Positions 20,625-58,526 of a DNA stretch of 64,000 bases are shown here, piece after piece. The stretch covers positions 399,112-463,111 of the forward strand of contig CAUYUJ010011237.1 of assembly GCA_963575745.1 (NCBI GenBank), written 5' to 3'. The position numbers and the translations under genes are program-made. Numbering within the stretch: position 1 is the stretch's first letter; every line of letters begins with the position of its first letter. This DNA comes from Prorocentrum cordatum (Eukaryota > Sar > Dinophyceae > Prorocentrales > Prorocentraceae). The notes beneath the pieces were generated by a model. That model was not told where the DNA came from, ran no database searches, and saw only the letters and a list, made by a program, of their open reading frames with translations.

Positions 20625-20747
20625 CTGGCCCGAGGAGGAGGAGGAGGAGGAGGAGAAGGGGGATAAGGAGGGCGATGAGGAGGGATGAGGAGGAGGAGGA
20701 GGAGGAGGAGGAGGAGGAGGAGGAGGAGGAGGAGGAAGAGGAGTACG
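20625..20747. repeat. GGA microsatellite, insertion site of the LINE-like element
   Basis: (GGA)n tract that resumes at 25289 after the element, so the insertion split one microsatellite. Confidence 0.9.
20731..20747. repeat. 17-bp target-site duplication, 3' side of the LINE-like element
   Basis: GGAGGAAGAGGAGTACG, identical to 25272-25288. It is directly followed on plus by TTTTT, the complement of the element's A tail. Confidence 0.92.
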
Positions 20748-20804
20748 TTTTTCCCGCGAGCACAGCGTGGGCGAGCACCTCGCGTCCACCTGCGTCAGGC
20801 CAGG

Positions 20805-23555
20805 TTAGTCCTCCGCGCCGCCTGAGGCGGCGGAGGAAATTTGTGCCTCCACGCCACTTCCCGCGGCGGAGGCCCTGGCAGCATTCCCAATCGATTCCAG
20901 AAACTCCAATTCCTGGGTTCTGGACAACGCGACCACCTCTCCAGGCAGTCTGTCATTCTTATAAGGATGCTTACCTGCCAGCAAACGATTACGCCGAGTG
21001 TTGGCTTTGTGGTCCCTCGGGTCCTTAGGACAACCTGTAAGTAACCCACAAGCCCTGGCGCTCAAACAGGCGCCGCACTCTCGACAGAAGGTGTGGTGGC
21101 CAATTCGAGACAGCATGTGTCGCCTTGGCCCCTCCAAAGGAGCCCCGTCGACACTCGCTATCTTCTTCCACTTGGCGTGCGAGGAGAAACCCTCCCTGCA
21201 AAACTTACGCGACAGCACCAGCTTGGCCTTATAGCTGTGGGCCGGTCTGGCACACCATGCACACCTCCAGGACCCCCTGTCCACCTCCAGGACGTGCCGA
21301 TACTCGGGAGGAGGCAAAACCGAACGGCGCGGCCGAGGGCCAGGGGGCTGGGAGGCGCTCTGGTGACGGCCTGTGGTGTCATCAACTGTGCCTATCTTAC
21401 AGGTCATATCTCCGACAAGCCCGAGGACAGCACAAACCTCCTTAAATCTGGCCACCCACGTGTCTCTGATATGCGGCGGGATGGCATCTAGCTTGGCGCC
21501 GTCCTTCGCTTGAAGGTCGGCGCTCTGATTCCTTAGGTACTTGCACAGCTCGAGTCCCTCGAGCTGTTGGGCATGGGCCTTCTTGGAATGCGCTTCGACT
21601 TTGACGACGACGAGGTCACCCTCCCCAACGAACGAATCTTCAATCGCATTCCAAATTCTATGCCCTAAATCGGCATGCGGTCGTCTGGCTGGGCGGCACC
21701 AAACTGGGCCTCGCATGAAGCCCCGAACGACGGTAGAATTGTCGATCCCCACCTGTAGAGGGGCAGCGCCATGCCGCAGAACATTCAGGAAACCGTACAA
21801 TTCTGCTCTAAGCACACTTTGTGCCTGCCTAACTCCTGGAACCGTGCCATGCATTGCTTTGCGTATATTTCCATGCTGGTCGACAAAACAGAGGCCCCCT
21901 CCGAACGACTTCAACCCAGAAGCCCCGACCCCCGACCCATCCGAGTAGGCCAGTCCTGAGAGAAGGGGATCGTCCCCGTACTCTGGGCCCAGGGTCTCCA
22001 TGCTGGGCGTGACGTCCAGGAAGGGATCCCCCAGTGGGTGAGGCACGAGAGCCCTGGAAAAGAGACAGGAAGAGGTGCACGAGGAGGAGGCGCGGTAGAT
22101 GATATCAGGATAGGATTCACTTGCAGCCTGGCGCTGCTCCTGACACGCTGGGCACCCCTGGGAGCCCCAAACGTCAAACCACTCTTGCGCGGCCCTGTCG
22201 GCCGCTTCCTGAGGATCAGCAAGCTCGAGGTTGGGAACGGAGTAACCCTCAACGGGGAGAGGAGGAGTACGCCACTTGCTGATCCTGTGGATGAAAGAAG
22301 AGCCTGCAGTCGACTCCTTCTTCAAACGTTCTCGCCATTCTTTTGACCGTGCGGCTGCCTGGTGCCGTTCGATGGTCTGAGCATTGGCTTCTGCGCGACG
22401 CTGGAGACCCATGATCTCTGGGGGCTGCTCCATGAGCGCTGGGCCCTCGAGACAAAGGGCGCGGTATCGTTCAAACTGGGCGATTACGTGCTCAGCCTCC
22501 TCCCCCAAGTCATGAACCAGCCGACTCCTTCCTCCTCCGATGCGGCGCTCGAGCTTTGCTCGTCGCGCACGTGCATGCATCCAGGTGCCCTCCTGCTGGG
22601 CAGCTTGTGCGAGGAAATTACTGGCTCGTGCGGCTACCCACCGCCATGCTTCAGCACAGTGTGAGACCTGCTTCCAGAGCTGATCAAGCTGGGTGCCCTT
22701 CAAATCGTGCTGATGATCGAAGTCTGGCCACTGCGCAGGCTGCGGGACTGGTCCGCACGGCCTCTCGATTGGGAAAGGTCTAGGCTTGGCAAGCCTCCAG
22801 CCGCCTTTTGTTCGGATCCTGGACTGCTTGACTAGACGGATTGGCGAATGAGGCGCGGCTGCAGTGTCTAAAACTTCTACCGCGTCACCGAACGCATGCT
22901 GGATGCGGGCGTCGAGCACAAAGAAATCGCTGATACTGCCACCGCCGACTCCTGCACACGTGGTAGTGGAGGGGAGACGCACCACTCCTCCCACATCTTG
23001 GCACCACCACGTCTTGAGCCGAGACTCCCCCATCTCATTGAAATCTGCTTGGAATATCCACGGTATGTCATACTGCTTGATGACCGTAGCGATGGCCTCC
23101 ATTGACAAATTTTGAATCGTCCAACTTTCACGTGTCCACAAATATGCCGTGGTAATCATGCGGCCACCCTTCTGTCCAGCAGAGCACCAGCCCACTGCCG
23201 CGCGCCCAGCCGAGCCAGGTGAGATATCAAACGTATTCATGCCTTCGAGGGTAAGAACAACATTCCTTGGCACACGAAATCCAACTCCACTAGACGGTCG
23301 TCCGCCTGGGCCGCTGACGGCTGGAACCAATGCTGCTGTATGCCTGTTGAAGCTGGCCGCCTCTATGTCCTTGGCGACGGGCGCAATCAACTTATGCACC
23401 TGAAGGAACGTGATGTGCATGGGGCCCACGATCTTCCTTGTGGCGACCTCGTCCAGCACATCGATAGCCTGCGCCCAAGAAGAGCAGTTGAAGCCTATGA
23501 ACTCGAGCCCCACATTGCGAGCGCCGCCCTTGCCTCGACGACGCGGGGGGCTCAT
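20805..23555 (-). CDS. LINE-like ORF2: endonuclease + RNase H, no reverse transcriptase
   Basis: The ATG at 23555 starts MSPPRRRGKGGARNVGLEF, 916 aa. Residues about 15-245 form an endonuclease/exonuclease/phosphatase fold: FIGFNCSSW, TFLQVHKL, FQADFNEMG (residues 168-176), SISDFFVLD (207-215) and APHSPIRLV (234-242), where the usual SDHxP is PHxP. Residues 250-470 are a basic, helical linker. Residues 533-670 are RNase H1-like with candidate catalytic D539, E585, D605 and H656. The C-terminal third has several CxxC pairs (CAWC, CREC). The polymerase expected between 470 and 530 is absent, leaving only a ~60-residue join, yet the frame stays open. The same frame extends upstream to 25205, but that part overlaps ORF1 antisensibly in composition and is not coding. 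Confidence 0.85.
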   Translation of the reverse strand: MSPPRRRGKGGARNVGLEFIGFNCSSWAQAIDVLDEVATRKIVGPMHITFLQVHKLIAPVAKDIEAASFNRHTAALVPAVSGPGGRPSSGVGFRVPRNVVLTLEGMNTFDISPGSAGRAAVGWCSAGQKGGRMITTAYLWTRESWTIQNLSMEAIATVIKQYDIPWIFQADFNEMGESRLKTWWCQDVGGVVRLPSTTTCAGVGGGSISDFFVLDARIQHAFGDAVEVLDTAAAPHSPIRLVKQSRIRTKGGWRLAKPRPFPIERPCGPVPQPAQWPDFDHQHDLKGTQLDQLWKQVSHCAEAWRWVAARASNFLAQAAQQEGTWMHARARRAKLERRIGGGRSRLVHDLGEEAEHVIAQFERYRALCLEGPALMEQPPEIMGLQRRAEANAQTIERHQAAARSKEWRERLKKESTAGSSFIHRISKWRTPPLPVEGYSVPNLELADPQEAADRAAQEWFDVWGSQGCPACQEQRQAASESYPDIIYRASSSCTSSCLFSRALVPHPLGDPFLDVTPSMETLGPEYGDDPLLSGLAYSDGSGVGASGLKSFGGGLCFVDQHGNIRKAMHGTVPGVRQAQSVLRAELYGFLNVLRHGAAPLQVGIDNSTVVRGFMRGPVWCRPARRPHADLGHRIWNAIEDSFVGEGDLVVVKVEAHSKKAHAQQLEGLELCKYLRNQSADLQAKDGAKLDAIPPHIRDTWVARFKEVCAVLGLVGDMTCKIGTVDDTTGRHQSASQPPGPRPRRSVLPPPEYRHVLEVDRGSWRCAWCARPAHSYKAKLVLSRKFCREGFSSHAKWKKIASVDGAPLEGPRRHMLSRIGHHTFCRECGACLSARACGLLTGCPKDPRDHKANTRRNRLLAGKHPYKNDRLPGEVVALSRTQELEFLESIGNAARASAAGSGVEAQISSAASGGAED

Positions 23556-23730
23556 CTTAGGTGAACTTGACCATGTAGAGAGAGATGTACTGGATGTTGC
23601 GTCAGGAGGGGACCCTCTGCCGTGATCTGACTCCTGCGACGTGCTAGACTCCTGCCATGAGCCCGACCATGTAGAGCATTGAGTACTGGTACCTGTGGCC
23701 GTGGAGGCCGAGCTGCCGAGCCCGCGCGGG

Positions 23731-24993
23731 CTACAGCGGTACTGGCTTGGCCACTGCCTCCGCCCTGCGGGCCCTGGCGCGCTGCAAGGCCTCCGCCAGC
23801 TCCTTGCCAGCGGCTTCGCAACCAGCGTCAGGGCCAACATCAGCGCTGGCAGCGCCTGGCGAAGCGCCCTGGGCACCCTGCGCCTGCGCGGCGGGCTGGG
23901 CGGCCTGCTGGGCCTCCTGGGAGGACTGGGCTGGCGCCTGCGGCGGGCCTCCCTCGGGGCTCTGGGCCGCTGGCGCCTCCGCAGCCGCCGCCTCCGCAGG
24001 AGGGTCCTCGCGCATGGCCTGGGCAGGCGCCTGCGACGGGCTCCCCTCAGGGGTCTGGGGCGCGGGCGCCTCTGCAGCCGCCGCCGCCGCAGGGGGGGCC
24101 TCACGCCTGCGCTTCTTGAAGGTCTCGCGGAGCACCCTGATCTCTTCAAACTGCTCACGCTGGGACTTGAGGACGTCGGCCCCTGGCCCGAAGTGCGCGC
24201 GGACCGCCTGCTGCACCGACGCCTCGAAGGTCTGCTTGAGCTTGCTGAACTGCTCCCGCTGCTCGGCCGTGATGTCCAACCCCTCAAGGTCGAAGAGGGG
24301 GCCGTCCTCGATGACGAAGCTGGCCTCGCCTTCGCCCAGCAGGGCAGAGAGGTTGATGACCCCGCCGCCCTTGTTGGTCCCCTCGGGCTGGGAGTCCTTG
24401 CCTGGAGCCGCCAAAGCCTTCTTCTCCTGAGCCAGCTTGACCTCCGCACCCACCAGGGCGTCAGCTGCGGCATCGGAGCGGGCCTGGCACTCGTCGAGCC
24501 AGAGCTTGGCGTCGGCCAGCTGCTTGGCTCGCTTTTCCAGCTCCCGACGTGCAGCCCTCTCCGCTGCGGCCGCCCGCTGGATGCCCTCCTCCAGGAGCGC
24601 GGGACGCTCTGCAGGTGCTGGCGGGGCAAAGGCGCTCTCGAGCTGCTGGAGCGCCTGCCGCTGGGCCTCGGAGAGGGCCTGCCCACCAAGGGTCTGCACC
24701 ACCTCGCCGATCGCGAGCGGCTCGGTCCTCTGCGTGGTCTCCTCGGTTTCGTGGTACCAGTCGGTCTGACCCTTGTGGTTGTCCTGCCACCAGCCTCTGC
24801 TGCCGCTAGCCCAGACGCCACGGGGCTTTGGGGCGGGAGAGTACGATGGTCGCAGGGCCTGCCCACAGCTGTAGCACGACTGCTTGGTCTTGTAGGTCCA
24901 ACGGTATCCACATTTCTTGCATCCCACGTAGTCGGCCGAGAAGGAGATCCTTGGAGCTGGGGACTTGCCGCCTCCACGCCTGCGATCCGACAT
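23731..24993 (-). CDS. LINE-like ORF1: zinc-ribbon and coiled-coil RNA-binding protein
   Basis: I chose the ATG at 24993 (MSDRRRGGGKSPAPRISF) because an upstream start at 25083 lies in the 5' monomer; 420 aa. Near the N-terminus C-K-K-C and C-Y-S-C are separated by ten residues, a CxxC-x10-CxxC zinc ribbon. Residues about 100-330 are rich in Glu, Gln, Ala and Leu with heptad-like spacing, suggesting a coiled coil (AAAAERAARRELEKRAKQLA). The C-terminal third is Ala/Pro/Gln low complexity. Zinc binding plus coiled coil is typical of LINE ORF1 proteins that package the RNA. ORF2 starts 175 bp after its stop. Confidence 0.8.
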   Translation of the reverse strand: MSDRRRGGGKSPAPRISFSADYVGCKKCGYRWTYKTKQSCYSCGQALRPSYSPAPKPRGVWASGSRGWWQDNHKGQTDWYHETEETTQRTEPLAIGEVVQTLGGQALSEAQRQALQQLESAFAPPAPAERPALLEEGIQRAAAAERAARRELEKRAKQLADAKLWLDECQARSDAAADALVGAEVKLAQEKKALAAPGKDSQPEGTNKGGGVINLSALLGEGEASFVIEDGPLFDLEGLDITAEQREQFSKLKQTFEASVQQAVRAHFGPGADVLKSQREQFEEIRVLRETFKKRRREAPPAAAAAAEAPAPQTPEGSPSQAPAQAMREDPPAEAAAAEAPAAQSPEGGPPQAPAQSSQEAQQAAQPAAQAQGAQGASPGAASADVGPDAGCEAAGKELAEALQRARARRAEAVAKPVPL

Positions 24994-25007
24994 GGCGTGC
25001 GGGATAG

Positions 25008-25219
25008 ACTGGGACTCTGGACGGCAGCGCGCAGCTCCCCGTACAGGTCCGAGAGAAGATGTCGGGCTGAACAGCCCTGGCACTGCCGCGGACTAGGGCG
25101 GGGGGATGTGATGGGATTAAGAGAATAGACTGGGACTCTGGACGGCAGCGCGCAGCTCCCCGTACAGGTCTCGAGAGAAGATGTCGGGCTGAACAGCCCT
25201 GGCACTGCCGCGGACTAGC
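25008..25219 (-). repeat. Two tandem ~93-bp 5' monomers of the LINE-like element
   Basis: 25008-25098 and 25125-25219 are almost identical, from GACTGGGACTCTGGACGGCA to ACTGCCGCGGACTAG on plus; one has an extra TC. They lie between the spliced leader and ORF1. Tandem 5' monomers act as promoters in some LINEs; here that role is only an analogy. Confidence 0.9.
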
Positions 25220-25252
25220 GGTATCCACTTGTTCCCCTGAGGAACTCATCAT

Positions 25253-25274
25253 CTTGAGCCAACATGGCTACGGA
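25253..25274 (-). other. Dinoflagellate spliced-leader sequence at the 5' end of the LINE-like copy
   Basis: Read on minus, the 21-nt core matches the conserved leader at 20 of 21 positions; the one change is T to G in the T-run. The 22nd base (T) fits the leader's first position. It abuts, and by two or three bases overlaps, the target duplication. This shows the inserted RNA had been trans-spliced. Confidence 0.93.
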
Positions 25275-25288
25275 GGAAGAGGAGTACG
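25272..25288. repeat. 17-bp target-site duplication, 5' side of the LINE-like element
   Basis: Identical to 20731-20747. On plus it is followed by more GGA repeats. Confidence 0.92.
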
Positions 25289-28183: not shown

Positions 28184-29398
28184 TCATTGCCTTCTCGCCC
28201 TGCTGCGGCCAGCCGTAGACGGGCGGCTGGAAGGCTCCGCGCCCCCGTCCGCCATGCTCTCCAGCTGCGGCAGCACGACCTCGTCGTTCTTGGCCGCCTC
28301 GAGCTCCTGCACCATGTCCTGCGCCAGCGGCGCCAGCACGGCGTCGGAGCGGTAGATGGCCTCCGCGATCTTCTGGGCCGGCCTGCGCCAGAAGGCCCGC
28401 CCCCGCTCAAGCTGCTCGGGGGTGAGCCGGCTCCGCTGCTCGATCAGCACGTGCACCTTCGTGTAGCGCTGAAGGGCCGACGTGGTCTGCCAGCGGCCCT
28501 TCCGGCGCGCCGCCTCGAGCGAGCCACCCGCGGCGATGTAGGCCGCCGCGCCCGCGTGCCTCAGCGAGTGCGGCGGCCCGAAGTCCGCCAGGCCCGCCCT
28601 GTCGAAGGCCAGCCGCCACGCCTTCCTGTACCTGTCCTGCGAGAGCGGGAAGAGGAGGTCCCGTGGCGCCGCGCCCTTGCCAATCGCCCGCAGGATGGCC
28701 TTCGTCACCTGCCACGTGACCACGACGCCCTGGTTCGCTCCCGTCTTCACCTTCTCGCCCCGCTCTCTGCGGCCCAAGGTGAGCCCGACCTCCCCGTCGG
28801 GCCCGACCGCCACGTCCGTCTTCCTGAGCAGGCCCCAGTCCTGCTCCCTCAGCCAGCCGTCCAGCTGCAGCAGCACCGCGGCCCCCTCGTACAGCTGGCC
28901 GTGCTCAAAGAGGTCATAGAGCACGCACCCCACGGCCTCGAACGGCACCGGCGCCCCCTCCTTCTGGAAGCCCATCCTGGACCAGGACTTCAGCGCCCTG
29001 GCAGCGACGGGGAGTCGATTGCGGTGATCCTCGAAGATGTGCATGAAGCCATTGAACAACGCAGACGCCCTGCTGAAGGGTAACTGCATCACGTAGCACA
29101 TGTCCGATATGTACCCGCCGAGCGCCGCATCCCTCTCCTCGTAAGTGGAGAAGGGGAGACCGTGCCGCTTCACGTCCAGGAGGAAGGCCCTCACCTCCTT
29201 CTCGTAGATCTGATTCGTGGCGTCGTCCACGGCGTGCACCACGAGCCTCACATTGTGATGCAGCCTGTCGCTCGGCGCCTGCTCCCAGGCCCGAGCGCCC
29301 CTCTTAGCCAAAGGGGGGGGCTTAGCCGAGGTCGTCGCGGGGCCGTCCGCTCCGCGCCGCGGCATCGCCTCGCACAGCCTCAGCCCGCTCATCGCCAT
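28184..29398 (-). CDS. DIRS-like tyrosine recombinase
   Basis: Reading from the ATG at 29398 (MAMSGLRLCEAMPRRG), 404 aa. The catalytic set of the tyrosine recombinase family is present in order: R184 in GWLREQDWGLLRKTD, H277 and R280 in PHSLRHAGAAAY, W303 in GRW and Y312 in RYTK. An N-terminal SAM-like helical region spans about 60-150. The enzyme would integrate a circular cDNA by site-specific recombination. Its ATG overlaps the Pol stop as TGATG (29400-29396), suggesting termination-reinitiation or coupled translation. The frame continues open upstream to 32800; its first 250 codons are the 5' part of Pol, and the middle is a shadow of Pol. Confidence 0.9.
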   Translation of the reverse strand: MAMSGLRLCEAMPRRGADGPATTSAKPPPLAKRGARAWEQAPSDRLHHNVRLVVHAVDDATNQIYEKEVRAFLLDVKRHGLPFSTYEERDAALGGYISDMCYVMQLPFSRASALFNGFMHIFEDHRNRLPVAARALKSWSRMGFQKEGAPVPFEAVGCVLYDLFEHGQLYEGAAVLLQLDGWLREQDWGLLRKTDVAVGPDGEVGLTLGRRERGEKVKTGANQGVVVTWQVTKAILRAIGKGAAPRDLLFPLSQDRYRKAWRLAFDRAGLADFGPPHSLRHAGAAAYIAAGGSLEAARRKGRWQTTSALQRYTKVHVLIEQRSRLTPEQLERGRAFWRRPAQKIAEAIYRSDAVLAPLAQDMVQELEAAKNDEVVLPQLESMADGGAEPSSRPSTAGRSRARRQ

Positions 29399-32300
29399 CA
29401 CAAAAGCGAAGCTCCAGGCGGTCCTCGTCGGGCCCGGTCTTGCAGCCGCTGAAGTAGCTCCCTCGGCACTCCACGGCCCACGTGGCCCGCCACCGTGTCC
29501 TCCGCCGCTCCTATGCCTTGACCCCTCGAGGGGCCGTCTGCCAGGTTGAGCTCGCTCGGCACCCACCTGAAGTACCCGCGGATCCTGCAGACCATCTGAA
29601 TGATGCCACCGATCCTCGCCAGGTGCAGGAGGTCCCTGGCAGACGAGCGCCCTTTCTTCAGGACGCCTAGGCTCACCAACGAGTCGGTGAAGAAAAGCAC
29701 GCGGTGGTTCCAGCTCTGGGACGTGCGGCTGAGGTGTCGGAGCACCGCCACCACCGTCCGCAACTCCAGGACGTTGTTGTGCTCGGCGTGAGACCATCGT
29801 CCCTGAAACAACACGTGCCACTTCCTCTCCAGCCAATGGCCCAGCAACGGCAGGGCTGGGCCCGTCGCACGCACGACGCGCCCGCGGTCCCCCTGCAGGC
29901 GAAGCCGGGCCCCCGCTGGTATCGAGTCCCAGTGCGGCTCGAGCTCCTGCAGGGTGGACGCGTATGCCCTGCGCAACTCCAGCGGGTAAGCACAGGCCAC
30001 CTGAGTCCACCGTAGCCCACCTGGTGATCGCCCTCGTAATTCTCGGTGAGCTCGGCCAGTCCGACTGCAGCGGCTCGAGGAACACAAGCACACCCGCTGT
30101 AGCGTCGCCATCTTCTTCACGTTGGTGATGAACGTAGTTGGCTTCCTCCATTCCTCGCCATACATGCAGTAATCCACCTCCACACGGAAAACCCCCTCGA
30201 GATCCAAGAGCGCGGTCATTGGCGCGAACGCCCATATCATGCTGGTCCTGGGGTTCTCGAGGGTGAATCCAATGCCAAGGCGTAGGCAGATCTTGACCAC
30301 CTCTACTGCTATCAAAGCCAAAGCGTTCCCTTCGTCGATCTTGGCCTGGTCCGTCTCCGTGCAGTCCGGCAGCCCCCATGGGTGATCGCTCGACCTCAGC
30401 GGCGGCTGCCTTGCTCTCGAAAACGTCGCGCACGGGGGGGCGACATGCACCCACCAGAACCAGCCAGTCCTCAACCTCCGTAACAGCAGCTCCAAGTTCT
30501 CTGTGACCAGTACGTCGAACTCCACGCCACGCTGGATGTCCCAGGCCTCGCCCCACGAGTCGGTCAGCTCCCTGATCGCGTCTAGCAGGCGAGAGCTCCC
30601 AGCGAAGAGCTCCAACACTCCAGGTCGCCCCATGGTGGGAGCGGCCGGGAGGTCCTCCTCCTCGCCGATCGCCTCCTGCGCCCGCTCGATCTCGGTGTAG
30701 CTCTGCTCGGCCAAGGGTCCCCAAGCTCCCCCATCTCCTCGGGCAGCTTCCCGTCGGACGTCCTCCTCCGCGCAGTCGCAAGCCAGGGTGCCGAAGCCCT
30801 CGTTGGACGCATCCGTCATATATGCTCTCGGCCACCAGCCCATCTCCAGGTTCGACTCCATGTAGACCGAGAGTGACGCGACGGCCCTCAACTCGCTCCT
30901 GACCTCCTCGGGCAAGCGGTGTGGCACAACACTCTCCTCCTCGGTGAACTCCCTCAGCCACCTGTAGGTCGCGTCCAGAATCGCAAACGAGGGGCGGAAG
31001 ACCATCATGGTCCAAGTCCAGTGCCCGACCAAAGAAGCCACCGCTGCAGGTCTGAGAGCCACTTCCAACACCGCCGCCTCGGTAGCTAGCACGACCTGCT
31101 CCATCTTCTTCGGCTGGATCCTCAGCGTGTAGGGTCTCGTGGCGGCAATGCACAGGCCCAGGCCGTTCTCCATCCCTTCTCCCCAGGCCTCCTTGTGCAC
31201 CGCGAGCCCCTTGCCGTTCAGGAGCTCCTTGATCATCTCCTTGTCCTCCAGGATCTTCAGCTCGCCGTCCTCGCCCTCGAGGGTGAAGCCGATGTAATCG
31301 TCGATGTACAGCATCAGCAAGAACCTGATCGCCTCCTCCTCCGATAGGCCAAAAGACGGGGTGGGCTTGCCGTAAGTCAAGCTGGGGGCCTTCAGGGACT
31401 CGAAGCTCGCCTCCAAGCAGCTGTGGGCCAAGAACACCGCCCACGCCGAGCCCATGACTAAGCTCGAAGCCCCAATGCCAATGTCCTCCTCGCGCGGCTT
31501 CGGCAACGTCACGCCCTGCTCCATCCCGTATTGATACAGCTCCTGCGGTGAGACATCCTCCACCACAAAATATTCCGCCAAATACGAACCCCAGTGCAAC
31601 CGATAAAACCAGTCCGGTACGTCGCCCTGGAAGGAGAAGAGCCGCCGTCCACGCAACACCGCTTCGTCCAGCTCCAGGAGCGCGAGGCCCGCGGGGCTGC
31701 CCAGAGGTACCCAAGGGGGATCCACGAAGAGCAGGTTGACTCTTCGGCAGTCCCAGATCAGCCGAGACTTCAAGATACCACCAGTCTTGGGGTCGAAGTC
31801 CTTCGCCACCGTGAACAGCCCGACATGTTCGCGTATCTTCGTCACATATGTTATCATTCCAGCCTGCGCCATCCGCAGGGCAAGTGCCAAGCGCTCCTTC
31901 TTGCTCCGCCACGCCGGGTCCGAGTAGCTCTTCGTCGCCTCGTACTTTTCCCAGTCGACTTCCCCCGAGCCCCTGATCATCAGCTGGCTGGCCTCTGTGA
32001 GGTACCGTCCAGCGAGGCTCGAGATCGCCGCCACCTCCAAGCTCTGGGTCCCCGGCGCTGGGAGCGACACCTGCTCCGCTCTCAGAGGGCACAGGTCGCC
32101 CTTCCTCAACTGCGGTGAAGCCTTCGATGCCGTAGCCGTCGTAGACCTCGATCCCTTCGCAAAATACTCTGTCGGGCTCCCTCCTGCCAGGCGGCTCAAT
32201 GCCGCCCTGCCGTCGTTGATGGTCCCCCACTTCGCCCTCGCGGCGTGAAGGTCCCAGGCTTCCGTCACCAGCCTCTTCTGTAGCGGCGTACTCGCACTCC

Positions 32301-32800
32301 AGTCCGTCTGGCACGTCTGCTTGTCCGTCAGGGTCGATGGATGTATCCAACCATTCGAACAGCCCGTCGCCATACTCCTGATCGCCGCTATCGTCCTCGA
32401 AGTCCGATGCCAGGTTGTCCTCAGCTCCTTCTCGGACAGGCTCGAACTCGACCTCCTCGACTGTAGTGGGAACGGAAGCCCAGGTAGACTCCTCAGGGGA
32501 TCCCTCTCTCTCGCATCCTTCTCCCCAGTAGTCATCTGGGACCACCGAGCGACCTGCGCTCCGACGTACGGGAAAGCCAGCTCGCCACAGAACGGCGCGA
32601 GGCTCTAAGTACAAGAAAGGCCTCGACGCACCGACGCCGCCGTGGAAGACCCCACAACCGATCGCCAGGAAGCTCACCAGCCCGATGTAGCACCACCAAC
32701 CGAAAGACGTGTCCAGCAGGAAGCTCGGCACGAAAGCGGCTCGCCGCCGCGGCCGTGGTAGAGGGGATTGACCCCTCAGGCCTTGGCCAGAGCACACCAC
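29398..32800 (-). CDS. DIRS-like Pol: RT, RNase H with nested cytosine-methyltransferase-like domain
   Basis: Two frames combine. 32800 to about 32100 is acidic with a hydrophobic stretch (GWWCYIGLVSFLAIGCGVF). After a +1 shift, a frame open from 32535 runs to the stop at 29398. Residues below count from 32535. Reverse transcriptase is about 200-500: RLIWDCRRVN (258), a motif-A-like FQGDVPDWF (302) and YIDD (410-413). RNase H starts with MTDASNEGFG (D575). Next comes a methyltransferase-like segment, about 637-805: motif I GVLELFAGSSRL, motif IV APPCATFS with the candidate nucleophile C702, and motif VI LENPRTS. RNase H then resumes: HNNVLELR (E924), FFTDSL (D951) and LNLADGPSR (D1000). Target-recognition and C-terminal methyltransferase motifs are not obvious, so activity is uncertain. 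RT and RNase H would copy the RNA. Confidence 0.85.
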
Positions 32801-58505: not shown

Positions 58506-58526
58506 ACGTAGCAATTGTGGCTCAAG
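58506..58526 (+). other. Spliced-leader relic at the 5' end of the second LINE-like element
   Basis: 18 of 21 positions match the leader core, including the last nine bases. It is in the same orientation as the ORFs that start about 190 bp downstream, as in the insert at 20731-25288. Confidence 0.75.

Follow-up and report, generated by a model that had tools for sequence, protein, structure and literature searches.

Analysis of a 64,000-nt stretch of Prorocentrum cordatum DNA (the window) and of related copies in the same genome points to a family of long interspersed nuclear elements (LINEs) that probably replicates through mRNAs bearing the host spliced leader, with the 5' end of each copy set by trans-splicing and with a rider form that lacks the reverse transcriptase (RT). 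The window holds one insertion of this family, on the minus strand of positions 20731-25288, with a spliced leader, an A5 tail and a 17-bp target-site duplication. The dinoflagellate leader (CCGTAGCCATGTTGGCTCAAG) lies at 25253..25273 on the minus strand and reads from 25273 to 25253 with 20 of 21 identities, the difference being a T-to-G change relative to the canonical leader; 0.00 leader-like matches are expected in the shuffled window. The A5 tail (20748..20752, minus strand) was read directly as TTTTT on the plus strand. The two exact 17-bp repeats are located, in plus-strand coordinates, at 20731..20747 on the 3' side of the element and at 25272..25288 on its 5' side, where the repeat overlaps two leader letters. 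Because of these shared letters, the true duplication of the window copy is 14-17 bp. Exact matches of GGAGGAAGAGGAGTACG in the window are limited to these two places, and with two mismatches it recurs at five further places in GGA-rich stretches, so that the expectation of 0.01 obtained by shuffling understates the local background. The target of the window copy is itself GGA-rich, and the specificity of the pair comes from its GTACG end.

An element-based search of the window's own genome yielded 1,237 candidates, and 35 loci were scored, to which all family counts given here refer (30 loci, L009-L038, with L009 being the window copy, and five more, L039-L043). In 24 of the 35, a single piece covered 4,000 or more of the 4,505 query bases with 94-100% identity, the 100% being the window itself. 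The 5' junction could be read in 30 loci, and in all 30 the leader abuts one fixed base without a gap, the element starting directly behind it with ATGATGAGTTCC. Flanks differ among these junctions, and no leaderless 5' end was found among them. At the other loci the 5' end is rearranged and keeps a remnant of the leader (L030), is truncated (L023) or runs into N (L029, L042 and L043). Sequences with at most two mismatches to the leader are common, with 33,832 occurrences, which might suggest that the match arose by chance or is a piece of a leader RNA gene; the reversed pattern, however, gives only 9, and with the leader at the element boundary of every readable 5' end the family alignment excludes chance, leaving a negligible probability for this explanation. 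A search of Rfam with the 5' untranslated region (UTR) of L040 gave three matches, all far below gathering scores, and single-strand folding of five 5' ends gave z-scores from -1.8 to 1.7 (L062 was entered in the wrong orientation).

Leader, tail and duplication had been described before by a reading of the window sequence without database searches (the sequence-only reading), and all three are confirmed on the minus strand, as is the existence of further copies with the same leader junction, which that reading proposed to look for. Its interpretation as a reinserted spliced-leader mRNA of a LINE holds for the leader-bearing retroelement RNA, the tail and the duplication, with the correction that the template lacked the RT and probably borrowed its enzyme. 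The idea of one recycling event was not borne out, as the junction recurs at all readable 5' ends with differing flanks. That LINE transcripts are trans-spliced and carry their leader to the new locus was right in kind and too narrow, since every readable 5' end of the scored family copies bears the leader. Nor does a near-perfect leader mark a recent event, given that 25 of the 30 family leaders are perfect; the leaderless donor loci with an acceptor AG that had been foreseen were not found among the 30 ends. The window copy is young, as judged from its few private substitutions (23 in 4,402 sites, among 27 aligned copies) and its intact duplication.

The five non-exact leaders are all altered differently: L009, L013 and L033 carry one substitution each, L022 a small change and L034 a loss of 4 nt. 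All changes are private, two apparently shared columns being a misregister of the deletion-bearing leaders L022 and L034, while about 3.3 changes would be expected on inner branches if the leader were neutrally inherited (P 0.04). This speaks against an integral leader, meaning one acquired in a single capture, passed on since then as DNA of the element and perhaps acting as its promoter, although selection on the leader would also explain the pattern. Such an integral leader agrees with the identical junction at all 30 ends, with the absence from all of them of the 15-nt relic (CCATTTTGGCTCAAG) behind the leader, and with the equal conservation of the adjoining 35 nt; passages in PMC6050394 and PMC12014239 propose the TTTT box as a promoter. 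The sequence-only reading would have taken the same junction with unrelated flanks and no AG acceptor as a sign of this state; the first was observed, but the leader itself ends in AG. The same leader also stands on elements with other 5' UTRs, and one locus described below suggests re-splicing. On balance we consider an integral leader unlikely.

These last two points come from leader sites elsewhere in the genome, sampled as 48 of the first 49 listed places (L001-L008, L044-L083), all exact matches. A pyrimidine tract was present upstream of the leader in 22 of the 48, a purine tract in 10 and neither in 16. The relic was present at eight sites. At one of them, L044, the leader and a truncated relic precede a 5' end that is 79% identical over 75 bp to that of L001, which is LINE-like by eye; this suggests that L044 may stem from a genomic LINE-like copy whose transcript was spliced again and reinserted. 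None of the sampled 5' ends resembled the remaining seven relic sites. Elements with different 5' UTRs bear the same leader in this sample, which was chosen for exact leaders, and a zinc-ribbon-like first open reading frame (ORF1) was seen by eye in L001, L003 and L006 out of eight longer sites. Eight of the 48 sites (e.g. L064, L068, L077, L001, L007 and L044) carry, in otherwise differing 5' ends, a motif resembling GGATACCGCTAGTCCGCGGC that follows the leader at a distance of about 45 nt and is a possible internal control element. A T before CCG, as in the 22-nt leader, was found in 7 of the 25 exact family leaders versus 43 of the 48 sampled sites. By eye, L045, L050, L069 and L071 have the leader behind GGAGG (opposite orientation) and a start like AAACG...GAAG, while in L046, L066 and L075 it stands behind an AT/AC-rich stretch with the start GCCATG..., resembling another element of the window at 58506.

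The insertions of the family stand behind pyrimidine (CCTCC) tracts in a single orientation. On the sense strand, the 20 nt upstream of the leader contain 18-20 pyrimidines in all 30 cases, versus 1.3% of window positions, and 22 of the 31 readable 3' ends are followed by CCTCC. Counted as G*A*, the tails at these 31 ends are 3-11 letters long. Under a strict rule, an exact duplication of 8-28 bp was found in 20 of the 26 two-ended copies, and the ten duplications that are not a pure CCT repeat measure 14-17 bp. Among the six misses, L012 and L028 fail solely through a T or a run of T before the leader. In L028 about 14 extra T, probably untemplated, lie between target and leader.

The window copy encodes two ORFs on the minus strand. 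ORF1 (23731..24993, 420 aa) has a zinc-ribbon-like N terminus, for which the homologous ORF of L040 gives weak matches that do not reach the cut-off. ORF2 is present as an open remnant of 916 aa (20805..23555, start codon assumed). Two homology searches gave a single match each. Compared with the protein P0001, which itself has an RNase H match above its cut-off and weak RT matches, ORF2 contains an endonuclease-like region (aa 17-273, 22737..23507, minus strand; 27% identity over 270 columns) and an RNase H-like region (aa 529-657, 21585..21971, minus strand; 34% identity over 131 columns to the PF00075 part of P0001). These two regions match the parts of P0001 that flank the RT, which is skipped. 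The Pfam search of window ORF2 gave no match, so that neither RT nor endonuclease was found that way, and searching the window ORF against Pfam and against solved structures returned nothing informative; the AlphaFold model has a pLDDT of 32. An ORF of 1,466 aa was rejected as a single protein, its first part being an out-of-frame reading of ORF1. The copy has an A tail and a target duplication, and it is classed as a non-autonomous derivative of a LINE family because no RT was found in its ORF2, the partner L040 having an RVT_1 match below cut-off.

Compared with the window copy, L039-L042 carry 1,824-1,828 bp extra at one place. Both RT-bearing copies tested matched RVT_1 below the curated cut-off (L040 with E 1.1e-6, L042 with 7e-4), and L040 shows 29% identity over 608 columns to P0001. 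ORF2 of L039-L041 has stops or frameshifts. The leader is present in the RT-bearing copies with a readable 5' end (L039-L041) and the 3' end is common to all four, the RT-bearing and RT-less forms sharing both ends. In the alignment to L042, the RT-loss junction, with 1,827 bp missing, is at 22155..22156 (minus strand), and a second, blunt junction, lacking 132 bp relative to the RT-bearing copies, is at 22646..22647 (minus strand). Across the RT region L042 reads ATGG/GCAAGA...TTTTGTAG/GTGCCCAGCG (slashes mark the edges, GTG following the second), where seven RT-less copies read ATGGGTGCCCAGCGTTTCAGG, and at the junction the L042 flanks match these seven letter for letter. One of three equivalent placements of the junction gives a GC-AG intron followed by G. 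According to passages in PMC11453091 and PMC10666404, dinoflagellates employ GC and GA splice donors. The RT part would have been lost once, probably when an RNA from which a GC-AG intron had been cis-spliced was reinserted. Deletion at the DNA level or template jumping, to which we give somewhat less than an even chance, is favoured by the 2-bp microhomology at the RT-loss junction and by the second, blunt deletion in the same lineage; the GC-AG edges with G after AG and the letter-for-letter agreement of seven copies with L042 argue against it.

In a tree of 27 copies, three RT-bearing copies split off with full support, and well-supported RT-less clades are nested in a ladder; the root was placed at the midpoint, and forks near it are weak. 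The RT-less form has thus bred for several generations. The star-like, poorly resolved parts of the tree could point to a few leaderless master loci from which all copies stem, the leader-bearing copies being one-step dead ends, and this would also explain single leaders without relics. We hold it to be improbable: none of the 30 readable 5' ends is leaderless, the nested RT-less clades would require a changing master or several, and the RT-less founder, if born by splicing, would itself be a retrocopy.

Substitutions were counted in 24 RT-less copies, as simple counts without a codon model. For changes present in at least two copies, ORF1 showed 33 nonsynonymous and 34 synonymous substitutions (expected nonsynonymous fraction 0.715, P 1.2e-4), in contrast to 287 (one of them a stop) and 104 in ORF2 (expected 0.730, P 0.91); the two ORFs differ with P 1.4e-4. 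Private changes numbered 80 nonsynonymous to 53 synonymous in ORF1 (P 0.005), which are therefore not fully neutral either, and 351 to 109 in ORF2 (P 0.12). A full-length open ORF1 was present in 19 of the 24 copies and an open ORF2 remnant, twice as long, in 11. Between the RT-less and RT-bearing forms both ORFs look constrained (7:30 in ORF1, 23:89 in ORF2), which for ORF2 fits a need for it until the RT was lost. After this loss ORF1 stayed constrained, while the ORF2 remnant drifts neutrally.

In the mechanism that we propose, an endonuclease would nick the GGAGG strand, where the A tail would be reverse transcribed (target-primed reverse transcription), and cDNA synthesis would continue through the leader to its 5' end. 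The RT-bearing form would move the window copy and its RT-less relatives in trans, their own ORF1 product being needed and the ORF2 remnant dispensable. The new copy would be transcribed from outside, the pyrimidine target tract acting as the tract of a trans-splice acceptor, and a fresh leader would be joined by splicing to the terminal AG of the old one; the leader would thereby be renewed and never stack in the family. Among the three ways of keeping a single leader, renewal at the terminal AG is put first, with about an even chance of being correct, because leader-bearing RT-less copies must be donors if their founder is a retrocopy, because the leader changes are all private and because L044 suggests re-splicing.

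Several observations weigh against this account. The scored sample comprises only 35 of the 1,237 candidates. Conservation extends equally to the 35 nt that follow the leader and is therefore by itself no proof of renewal. In passages of PMC3229502 and PMC12014239, relics are described as products of splicing to the leader's first AG (GTAG), with 15 nt left behind; this AG lies directly behind the pyrimidine tract and yet no relic occurs in the family, so that renewal would have to use the second AG. Pyrimidine or purine tracts are also enriched 600-1500 bp away from the copies (11.6% versus 2.9% in the window, both strands), and the target rule is broken on the 3' side by L023 (flank CCCGCTTCTGC) and by L027, which is without its last bases and tail. 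The putative APE-type endonuclease of window ORF2 is endonuclease-like only by its similarity to P0001. As for the RT loss, among random deletions that have three or more placements, 5.7% agree with GT/GC-AG and 8.5% with GT/GC/GA-AG, and the 132-bp gap was rejected as a second intron, its edges not being splice-like.

Part of the growth of dinoflagellate genomes is ascribed to the reinsertion of leader-tagged mRNAs. DinoSL-tagged retrogenes, the recycled processed cDNAs of dinoflagellates, are said to have been reported by Slamovits and Keeling in 2008. Passages in PMC6050394, PMC12014239 and PMC3229502 describe such cDNAs, regard the relics as signs of host genes and do not settle on a recycling enzyme, and one review (PMC6050394) favours long terminal repeat (LTR) elements as the source of reinsertion. 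The window family resembles these retrogenes in that a reinserted cDNA starts with the host leader and differs in that its template is a retroelement, with ORFs that are not those of a host gene, in its multiple generations and in the absence of relics from the 30 readable 5' ends. LINEs, or non-LTR elements, are characterized by an APE-type endonuclease, RNase H, the order ORF1-ORF2, an A tail and short target duplications. The family shares with them the ORF order, tail and duplications, with the RT in the partner, whereas its 5' end is apparently set by trans-splicing, its target is CCTCC and the RT is missing in the window copy. Non-autonomous LINE derivatives such as HAL1 have lost the RT and kept ORF1. 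The RT-less form is alike in this, with ORF1 constrained after the loss, and differs in carrying part of ORF2 as a neutral passenger and a leader at its 5' end.

Spliced and reintegrated human L1 elements (SpIREs) are described in PMC5860796 as generally evolutionary dead ends; a spliced LINE RNA was likely reinserted here as well, but the RT-less form founded a breeding subfamily. R2, for which parts of PMC3414825 describe non-autonomous internal-deletion derivatives, is similar in its internal-deletion riders, its targeted insertion and a 5' end that comes from RNA processing of a cotranscript, performed in R2 by a self-cleaving ribozyme and in the dinoflagellate family presumably by host trans-splicing. 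No leader-bearing dinoflagellate LINE family was found in the titles and abstracts searched, which leave out subscription papers and supplements, and a prior description is possible. A leader on dinoflagellate mRNAs, those of retroelements included, is expected; the novelty lies in the constancy of the leader, in the target and in an RT-less form that breeds. A LINE family with the leader on all readable 5' ends is a concrete candidate for the recycling enzyme with a testable target signature, counts of leader relics as host retrogenes may include LINEs, and the family offers a case for following selection on ORF1 alone after RT loss. More tentatively, a whole class of dinoflagellate LINEs may have ceded its 5' end to trans-splicing, with landing sites where the sense-oriented pyrimidine tract and the leader's terminal AG jointly rebuild the acceptor, a renewed leader and RT-less riders that use ORF1 alone; much of the relic load would then be LINEs, and these the engine of cDNA recycling.

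The 5' UTR of the window copy (24994..25252, minus strand) contains a tandem duplication with units at about 25217-25126 and 25096-25006, joined by a linker of about 29 bp that is absent from the other fetched copies. In P0002, a Prorocentrum cordatum gene model of the ClpB-like AAA+ kind, ORF1 and three pieces of ORF2 of the LINE, 90-95% identical, are joined as if spliced, with one joint at TTTTCCAG/GGCTCTCG of the element. A second LINE-like element, on the plus strand, starts with a leader with three mismatches at 58506-58526, after a CA microsatellite, and extends downstream to about 62760. It has a frame like ORF1, weakly matching coiled coils, and a stretch AGDFNMSP, in which AGDFN resembles an endonuclease motif. 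On the minus strand of 28184-32800, the window also carries an ORF that weakly matches a tyrosine recombinase (PF00589, with E 1.3e-5, below cut-off).

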